A stretch of DNA of 64,000 nt, taken from positions 620,001-684,000 of the forward strand of contig NZ_CALPBY010000001.1 in assembly GCF_943181405.1 (NCBI RefSeq), given 5' to 3'. The notes beneath the pieces were generated by a model. That model worked only from the letters and a program-made list of their open reading frames with translations. It searched no databases and had not been told where the DNA came from. Origin of the DNA: Cellulosimicrobium sp. Marseille-Q4280 (GTDB lineage Bacteria; Actinomycetota; Actinomycetes; Actinomycetales; Cellulomonadaceae). Every line of letters begins with the position of its first letter. The first letter of the stretch is position 1. The position numbers and the translations under genes are program-made. Positions 53,067 through 54,853 of the stretch are shown one piece after another.

Positions 53067-54047
53067 TCAGAAGTCCCAGTCGTCGTCCTCGGTGTTCACG
53101 GCCTTGCCGATGACGTACGACGAGCCGGACCCCGAGAAGAAGTCGTGGTTCTCGTCGGCGTTCGGCGACAGGGCCGAGAGGATCGCCGGGTTGACGTCGG
53201 TCTCGTCCTTGGGGAACAGCGCCTCGTAGCCGAGGTTCATGAGCGCCTTGTTGGCGTTGTACCGCAGGAACTTCTTGACGTCCTCGGTGAGACCGACGCC
53301 GTCGTAGAGGTCCTCCGTGTACTGCACCTCGTTGTCGTAGAGCTCGAAGAGCAGCTCGAACGTGTAGCCCTTGAGCTCCTCGCGCTCGGCCGGAGAGAGC
53401 TTCTCCAGACCCTTCTGGTACTTGTAGCCGATGTAGTACCCGTGCACGGCCTCGTCACGGATGATGAGGCGGATGAGGTCGGCCGTGTTCGTCAGCTTGG
53501 CGCGCGACGACCAGTACATCGGCAGGTAGAAGCCCGAGTAGAAGAGGAACGACTCGAGGAGCGTGCTCGCGACCTTGCGCTTGAGCGGCGAGTCGCCCTT
53601 GTAGTACTCCATGACGATCTCGGCCTTGCGCTGCAGGTTCGGGTTCTCCTCCGACCAGCGGAACGCGTCGTCGATCTCGCGCGTCGAGCACAGCGTCGAG
53701 AAGATCGACGAGTAGCTCTTGGCGTGCACCGACTCCATGAAGGCGATGTTGGTGTACACCGCCTCCTCGTGCGGCGTGATCGCGTCCGGGATGAGCGACA
53801 CGGCGCCGACGGTGCCCTGGATCGTGTCGAGCAGCGTCAGGCCCGTGAACACGCGCATCGTGAGCTCCTGCTCCTGCGCGGTGAGCGTGTGCCACGACTG
53901 GATGTCGTTGGACACCGGCACCTTCTCCGGCAGCCAGAAGTTCCCGACGAGGCGGTCCCACACCTCGAGGTCCTTCTCGTCCTCCAGACGGTTCCAGTTG
54001 ATCGCGCTCACGCGATCGATGAGCTTGAGCTTCCCGGTGGGAGTCAT
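53067..54047 (-). CDS. nrdF: class Ib ribonucleotide reductase beta subunit
   Basis: 326 aa di-metal radical subunit. [33 protein letters not shown], metal ligands in [20 protein letters not shown] and [15 protein letters not shown], and the C-terminal NrdE-docking tail TEDDDWDF are all present. It generates the tyrosyl radical for dNTP synthesis. The ATG overlaps the upstream endonuclease stop by 4 nt, and its Shine-Dalgarno AAGGAGAG lies inside the endonuclease reading frame. Confidence 0.96.
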
Positions 54048-54853
54048 GCCGGATTCTCTCCTTCTGGTGGACGCGTCACCTGCTGCTCCGCGTCAGCGAT
54101 ACAGAACTTGCACGTCGGGCTGGTTCGGCCCTTGTTGGTGTGATGGCGCGTGTGTGCGCTTCGTGCGCTCGACGGCTTCGGGACGCCCTTCTGAGCCGCA
54201 GAGCGCTTTGCTCGGGTCTCAGCACTCGCCGTCTTGCCGAAGTTCGGGTTGAGCTCCCCGCGACGCATGGCCGACAGCAACGCACGGGTTTCCTCCGACA
54301 CCGTGTGGCCATAGCTCGGATGATCGGGTCCGAACTTCCCGAAGTTCGGGTTCTCGGGCCCGACGAACGTTCCCTTGCGCTGTTCCGACCAGCGAGCACG
54401 CTGCTCGTCCGAGTGCTTGCCCCCGTAGAACGGGTTCAGCTCTCCTGGTCTGCTCAGCCCTTGGCGACCCGTAGACCTCTGACGCGCTGCTTCACGCTGC
54501 TCCGGAGTCCAGACGACGCCCGTCGGGCCGAGACCGCCCTCCGACACGTTCAAGAGCCGATGACCAGTCACCCGGAGGAAGTCGATCCATTCGATCTCGG
54601 ACTCGCCCAGCGAATCGAGGTCAGCCCGAACGACCTCCAGGACGTCGACGGTGACCGCATCCTCCCCGTGCTTGCGCAGCCAGTCGCAGAACGGCGTCTT
54701 CTTCTCGTCACGCGCGTTGCGCAGATGCTGACGAAGCCGACGGGTCGTCGTCTTCGTCGTGAGGCCGACGTAGCGGTACTCGTCGGACTCGCGCAGGCGG
54801 ACGCCGTACACGAGTCCGACGGGCGCTCGAACCGCGAGGAGTTCGTCGATCAT
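54044..54853 (-). CDS. free-standing GIY-YIG homing endonuclease with NUMOD3 repeats
   Basis: 269 aa. GIY-YIG catalytic domain about residues 12-110: GLVYG (13-17) and YRYVG (26-30), Arg-rich helix [11 protein letters not shown], acidic ESEIEW (84-89) and [10 protein letters not shown] (100-109). Three NUMOD3-type DNA-binding repeats follow (about 137-161, 165-199, 199-223), each with ENPNFGK-, [13 protein letters not shown] or [12 protein letters not shown] cores. A CKFC pair is near the C-terminus. It makes site-specific breaks that copy its own gene into empty alleles. It sits 15 bp after nrdE with its own GAGGAAG, and overlaps nrdF. Base composition is visibly less GC-rich than nrdE/nrdF. 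No intron or intein boundaries were seen. Confidence 0.85.

Follow-up and report, generated by a model that had tools for sequence, protein, structure and literature searches.

A gene for a GIY-YIG/NUMOD3 protein sits between nrdE and nrdF in Cellulosimicrobium sp. Marseille-Q4280, within the 64-kb stretch of DNA analysed here (the window), and we regard it, with a probability of about 0.78, as a homing endonuclease gene of the free-standing kind, resident at a single site, the nrdE 3′ end. The family occupies this single site in a patchy set of hosts, with a replacement tract around the insert, carrier-type nrdE tails, purifying selection on the gene and invariant catalytic-type residues in its product. 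The best reading of these sequences is that the element would target the nrdE 3′ end and travel with a recoded nrdE tail, with cutting and protection as predicted activities. On its arrival, the gene seems to overwrite the end of a neighbouring essential gene.

The endonuclease gene in its operon

The operon is encoded on the reverse strand of the window in the order nrdH-nrdI-nrdE-endonuclease-nrdF. An nrdH-type glutaredoxin gene (57589-57834, PF00462) and nrdI (57043-57474, PF07972) are followed by nrdE (54869-57079, start codon unsettled), which encodes the large chain and is the sole PF02867 match in this genome. The nrdE stop codon (54869-54871) is separated by a 15-bp spacer (54854-54868), containing GAGGAAG as a possible ribosome-binding site recognised by eye, from an intact ORF of 269 aa with an ATG start (54044-54853), assigned as a GIY-YIG/NUMOD3 homing-type endonuclease gene on profile matches and invariant residues. 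Its stop codon overlaps by four nucleotides (ATGA) the start of nrdF (53067-54047), encoding the class Ib ribonucleotide reductase small chain (PF00268, 3.7e-96). This arrangement is as the first-pass annotation had described it, including the placement of the nrdF Shine-Dalgarno sequence beneath EGEN, the last endonuclease codons, where sequence inspection indeed finds AAGGAGAG (54063-54056), likely to be the nrdF ribosome-binding site. Its further proposal, that the reading frame had grown through this site, is not favoured, because an ATG or GTG nrdF start with the 4-nt overlap is available in 38 of the 41 carrier rows (some genomes appearing twice), so that the overlap looks like a feature of the family. 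The rows lacking such a start are L038, L046 and L075, and in L037 an ATG with a 1-nt overlap is a likelier nrdF start than the GTG. In simple consensus scans of 52900-58200, the operon strand was free of terminator-like sites, and the sole promoter-like site lies upstream of nrdH. With no internal terminator and an overlapping nrdF start, entry of the element seems not to cut nrdF off, and the layout suggests that translation of nrdF may be coupled to that of the endonuclease gene.

Profile searches of the 269-aa protein gave a clear match to NUMOD3 (Pfam, E 1.7e-15), a match to GIY-YIG in Pfam that slightly missed the curated cut-off (E 7.3e-4, 20.2 bits against 22.6) and a match to TIGR01453 (NCBIfam) above its cut-off (65.9 bits against 56.05). 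The claim of a triple NUMOD3 was borne out for two stretches, detected by Pfam at E≤1; the third is seen by eye only. All 20 aligned relatives match TIGR01453 at E≤1e-3, NUMOD3 and phrog_314, a homing endonuclease family of PHROGs, and five of the 20 match Pfam GIY-YIG at E≤1e-3. Residues Y16, Y28, R39, H43, E86 and N102, as well as the cysteine pair C248/C251, are invariant in the 20 members, and the invariant Arg, Glu, Asn and Tyr are presumably catalytic-type positions, by comparison with their roles in I-TevI. The window protein has both the GIY-YIG catalytic domain and these kept positions. A failure of HMM searches to detect GIY-YIG, named in the first-pass annotation as a refuting result, was not observed, even though the Pfam score taken alone lies under its threshold. 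In a predicted model, residues ~11-100 fold in the order beta-beta-alpha-alpha-beta-alpha with a mean pLDDT of at least 90 per block, the model being weaker outside this region (mean pLDDT 74, pTM 0.42). A conserved C-terminal block (residues ~234-251), mostly retained in phage Talia1610, is possibly zinc-binding. Comparison of the window copy with that of Cellulosimicrobium funkei gave a dN of 0.093 and a dS of 0.762 (dN/dS ~0.12), indicating purifying selection, and together with the domain matches this argues that the gene is real and maintained rather than a chance ORF.

Rfam detected no group I or II intron at gathering scores across the window, and nrdE and nrdF align without interruption on both sides of the gene, which is free-standing and intronless, in agreement with the first-pass annotation. 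A group I intron-encoded endonuclease was ruled out on the same Rfam result, the name of TIGR01453 being a mere family label. The proteins of loci L041 and L042 share 50% identity over residues 1-110 and 87% over the remainder, which hints that nuclease and DNA-binding halves have been shuffled. Elsewhere in the window, a c-di-AMP riboswitch (Rfam RF00379, 61.6 bits) was found at 15868-16028 on the forward strand, where it overlaps or precedes an ORF that by eye resembles an NlpC/P60-type secreted protein.

Distribution and movement between hosts

Only 2 of the 17 genomes of the genus carry the gene, the window's own and C. funkei (L031), with proteins 85% identical; the possibility that all relatives carry it, raised as a counter-case in the first-pass annotation, did not materialise. 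One of the 15 non-carrier congeners (G001, 75% complete) also gave no nrdF match and therefore says little as an empty genome. An order-wide scan found carriers in 12 of 396 genomes, a GTDB contig scan 18 relatives, and a phylum sample a single genome of 396 at E≤1e-10, the window's own. Joining the copies from all fetched loci by sequence (E≤1e-25) gave 42 clusters, 7 from phages or viral contigs and 35 chromosomal, of which 28 had been found by protein alone with position unused. All 28 of these distinct chromosomal copies lie directly behind nrdE, and nrdF is next in 27. The hosts span seven or more genera of actinobacteria, those named being Cellulosimicrobium, Arthrobacter, Agromyces, Glaciibacter, Microbacterium, Cellulomonas and Mycolicibacterium, so the view that such a gene is unusual in a chromosomal class Ib operon is not supported as worded. 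No nrdF match was found in the 10.8-kb Mycolicibacterium locus L048. Searches of open-licence PMC papers (no preprints) brought up none that describes a GIY-YIG gene lying between nrdE and nrdF of a chromosome.

Divergent versions (33-46%) with the same order or site occur in phage Talia1610 and in viral contigs L082, L083 and L087, L083 being cut at the contig end. Two further copies from the viral collection, L080 and L081 (58% and 73%), are also located at nrdE-nrdF and may be chromosomal fragments. An nrdE or nrdF match was present in 7 of the 80 fetched viral loci, with L101 and L118 giving weak nrdE-like matches only, and the loci L084-L086 (~30% identical) contain neither an nrdE nor an nrdF match. 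As these more distant loci show no such match, the bond to the nrdE-nrdF site belongs to the nearer family. A plasmid origin was rejected, the plasmid records amounting to seven from Bacillus at 26.6%.

Genus trees were built from the nrdE and nrdF bodies with the junction left out. The names Cellulosimicrobium (g1), Arthrobacter (g26) and Agromyces (g41) were assigned because copies in these groups are identical to those of named records, and we infer that g20 is Cellulomonas and g123 Mycobacterium-type. Four group samples consist of the 30 best-scoring loci out of 90, 58, 77 and 85 matching genomes, to which carriers L072, L073 and L079 were added from the order scan, and the carrier shares of the groups (8/32, 8/31 and 4/30) are therefore not unbiased. 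Duplicates (L002, L013, L069, L068, L070, L071, L076, L077 and L030) were omitted from the trees, the tract comparisons and the tail-residue counts; L028, with a frameshifted nrdF, was left out of tract comparisons and trees, in which L017, of another genus in the same family, was placed with Cellulosimicrobium. The 8, 8, 4 and 2 carriers of Arthrobacter, Agromyces, g20 and Cellulosimicrobium need 8, 8, 4 and 2 changes, respectively, and in the best tree of each of these four genera every carrier is an isolated tip, although few branches are well supported and the change counts are accordingly soft.

The gene itself also looks foreign to its surroundings. When the two Cellulosimicrobium carriers are compared, the endonuclease gene shows a synonymous divergence of 0.76, and nine genes around it 0.14-0.51. 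Third-position GC is 0.78-0.82 in the endonuclease gene and 0.90-0.99 in the nine neighbours. In the gene tree, copies group mostly by genus, with Mycolicibacterium amid Arthrobacter-family copies (95/75 with Arthrobacter, on an unstarred branch). L073, L177 and L188 form one gene clade (100/93), and the host genes of L073 fall outside the supported L177+L188 clade. A patchy and non-vertical host distribution of the gene is supported by these comparisons.

The footprint at the nrdE-nrdF junction

The clearest footprint was obtained from C. funkei and its empty sister genome G011. As far as codon 722, their nrdE genes have 23 differing codons among 716 aligned, versus 9 among the 14 codons from 723 to 736 (p=3e-10, with the boundary drawn after seeing the data). 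The 137-bp nrdE-nrdF spacer of G011 is gone in C. funkei, and codons 2 and 4 of the first four nrdF codons differ (p=0.01), followed by 12 differences in 322. The sharp replacement tract thus comprises ~42 bp of nrdE, the insert and ~12 bp of nrdF, as if the junction had been replaced by gene conversion. The corresponding segments in the window are the last 14 nrdE codons (54872-54913, reverse strand), encoding the CVSC redox tail, and the first four nrdF codons (54036-54047, reverse strand). Within the genus, the spacer, which measures 97-256 bp in 14 empty congeners, has been replaced in full, together with the nrdE tail and the nrdF head. Because the spacer was replaced and not interrupted, alignment with the empty congeners yields no exact empty site, and the exact insertion point is no longer visible. 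The first-pass annotation's reading of a homing-type gene is borne out, with empty sites in relatives and a non-vertical distribution; the exact empty site that it named as possible support is not seen.

With the 14-codon tail fixed, 13 of the 22 comparisons of a carrier with its nearest empty relative gave p<0.05. The tail evolves fast in empty genomes too, as evidenced by a tail/body ratio of 2.2 between empties versus 3.2 between carriers and empties; Agromyces shows no tail excess (3.0 versus 2.8), and the pairwise test for the window's own genome reached no significance (4/14 versus 30/196, p=0.17). On the nrdF side, codons 4, 5 and 7 in Arthrobacter g26 read AAA/GTA/CTT-or-CTC in 8 of 8 carriers versus AAG/GTC/CTG in 24 of 24 empties, both among the matches listed. 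Among named Arthrobacter carriers beyond those eight, L039 has this head signature, L033 has it in part, and L037 and L038 do not. Empty alleles and co-conversion of the flanks were both found, clearly so in C. funkei and in Arthrobacter g26.

Carriers often have an altered codon just ahead of the NrdE redox CxxC. In the window, GTGGAAAACTGCGTCTCCTGC (nrdE codons 728-734, 54878-54898, reverse strand) is of the carrier type, with N before the first Cys of CVSC. This residue is present in 2/2 carriers versus 1/13 empties of Cellulosimicrobium and, among the matches listed, in 7/8 versus 6/24 in Arthrobacter, 3/4 versus 0/26 in g20 and 2/2 versus 3/29 in the Mycobacterium-type group. Pooling these four genera gave 14 of 16 carriers versus 10 of 92 empties (stratified exact p=7e-9, among the matches listed), the residues for the comparison having been picked after the data were seen. 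A mixed leftover group, outside the stratified test, has N in 5/7 carriers versus 4/11 empties. In Agromyces, L occupies the same position in 5/8 carriers versus 0/23 empties, among the matches listed. Over 14 phylogenetically independent pairs on supported branches in four genera, ~10 point in the same direction, none in the opposite one, and the rest show no difference; these tallies are summed averages over random pairings, and no single genus is significant. Neither N nor L is found in carriers L037, L039 and L072 of Arthrobacter, L228 of g20, L046 of Microbacterium, or L036, L040 (both M), L043 and L045 of Agromyces.

The motif GTGGAAAAYTGYGTNNNNTGY occurs in 7 of the 396 order genomes, that is in 5 of 12 carriers, which were partly the source of the motif, and in 2 of the 384 others, which were not. 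Of these two non-carriers, G128 has its match outside nrdE, and G327 has it in an nrdE without an endonuclease gene. The Mycobacterium-type carriers L048 and L278 have a GTGGAAAAT tail. L169 of Arthrobacter, in which the endonuclease is absent and the nrdF head is of the empty type, shares 16 of 17 tail codons with carrier L188 and might be a former carrier. A search of its 657-bp gap alone for an endonuclease remnant (E≤10 allowed) gave weak matches only, the best at E 0.004, and the gap holds other small ORFs. In L072 (G059), the endonuclease copy has TAA at the codon of the GIY tyrosine and the nrdE tail is of the non-carrier type, as would be seen in a decaying copy.

Several features of the empty junctions were noted besides. 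The empty loci of Cellulosimicrobium and relatives (L003-L017, L019 and L021) have spacers of 97-325 bp, many with repeat-like, GC-rich palindromic stretches by eye, and a hairpin of the GTACGACGGCGGG...CCCGCCGTCGTAC type, also recognised by eye, is common to most fetched Arthrobacter empties. The endonuclease-free loci L169 (G491), L192 (G519) and L193 (G524) have nrdE-nrdF gaps of 657, 301 and 487 bp with small inserts that bear short ORFs, and a TGR(Y/F)V stretch is present in the proteins of L169 and L193. The nrdE-nrdF gap may be an insertion hotspot.

Proposed homing cycle and competing explanations

The spacers vary in length and sequence between genera, which makes it improbable that a common target lies within them. 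The end of nrdE encodes the conserved redox Cys pair, and in L048, where nrdF was not found beside the endonuclease gene, the nrdE tail is still of the carrier type. The nrdE end is thus the likely target of the endonuclease. We propose that the protein, built from a GIY-YIG nuclease domain, a NUMOD3-rich DNA-binding arm and a C-terminal Cys pair, would cut an empty nrdE-nrdF allele, whether incoming or co-resident, inside or close to the final ~40 bp of nrdE. With the carrier allele as the repair template, the endonuclease gene would then be copied across along with the nrdE tail and the opening codons of nrdF, with deletion of the old spacer, and the copied tail, often with a changed codon beside CxxC, could also block re-cutting. 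The cassette would supply its own nrdF ribosome-binding site in its last codons and end on the nrdF start, by which the essential operon would stay readable. Cutting, exact target, protection and translational coupling are predictions from genomic comparison. A stronger version of this scheme, in which homing works through the recoding of an essential enzyme, such that the altered residue beside the NrdE CxxC (N in place of G in most of the genera seen, and L in place of M in Agromyces) renders the allele uncuttable and can remain as a scar after loss of the gene, perhaps as in L169, is put forward tentatively, at somewhat less than even odds.

The shared nrd-endonuclease order in phages and viral contigs would also fit a gene that hitch-hikes passively, brought in by ordinary homologous recombination of one nrd operon with another (a phage operon, for instance), with no active cutting and with flank scars that are simply donor DNA. 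Passive recombination could yield similar tracts, and nrdE tails vary among empties as well. We nevertheless consider this explanation unlikely, given that the catalytic-type residues are invariant in all 20 members, that dN/dS is ~0.12, that each carrier stands alone at a tip in the four genus trees, and that the C. funkei tract is short, with the insert at its centre.

Purifying selection, together with the overlapping nrdF start in 38 of 41 carrier rows, could also be expected of a domesticated protein or reading frame kept to tune nrdF expression via the DNA-binding arm, its mobility being over; the lack of the gene in most operon-bearing relatives and the isolated position of carriers make this very improbable. 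Hardly any more credit, and if anything slightly less, is given to an old vertical gene with many losses, its nrdE tail co-adapted to the overlapping operon and not to cutting. The gene tree does group largely by genus, but the synonymous divergence of 0.76 exceeds the maximum of 0.51 in nine neighbours, C. funkei and its empty sister are near-identical up to nrdE codon 722 and past nrdF codon 4, and the L073/L177/L188 gene clade (100/93) conflicts with the position of the L073 host genes. We therefore retain the free-standing homing endonuclease as the preferred reading, and the interpretation given in the first-pass annotation is partly supported.

Phages are the best-known source of free-standing homing genes (PMC2988022), and phage nrd operons with homing endonuclease genes are described in PMC3653736. 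The closest parallel in position is T4 mobE, an HNH gene between nrdA and nrdB that targets nrdB; like the present gene, it encodes an endonuclease, is free-standing and separates the genes for the large and small chains of an aerobic ribonucleotide reductase, and its start overlaps the stop of the upstream gene by one nucleotide (PMC2988022). Unlike mobE of T-even phages, with its class Ia nrdAB operon and nrdB target, the present family is GIY-YIG, chromosomal and located in class Ib nrdEF, with nrdE as the probable target. T4 SegG and the other Seg proteins are also free-standing GIY-YIG enzymes without an intron, and flank co-conversion is reported for SegG, but those are phage genes at other host genes (32/59 for SegG; PMC2988022).

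I-TevI shares the nuclease class and a NUMOD3-like stretch (1i3j/1t2t profile match, E 0.015, over only 38 profile positions) and differs in being intron-encoded in td, there being no intron here. Gene 111 of the Arthrobacter phage Talia1610 shares the order nrdH-nrdI-nrdE-GIY-YIG-nrdF and 36% identity over 251 aligned positions; unlike the window gene, it resides in a phage genome, is divergent, and overlaps nrdE by 29 nt and nrdF by 20 nt.

New in this case is that a single nrdE site is occupied recurrently in chromosomes and that natural footprints accompany the occupation. In several genera of actinobacteria the family resides in the chromosome, always at this site, in an operon that in the window's genome holds the only PF02867 large chain, and the near-identical pair of empty and occupied alleles makes chromosomal homing, the co-conversion tract and self-protection of the target directly testable. 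If the recoding is true, the endonuclease edits the ribonucleotide reductase tail of the hosts it has entered, suggesting a selfish gene that alters the redox-active tail of an essential enzyme at the sequence level.
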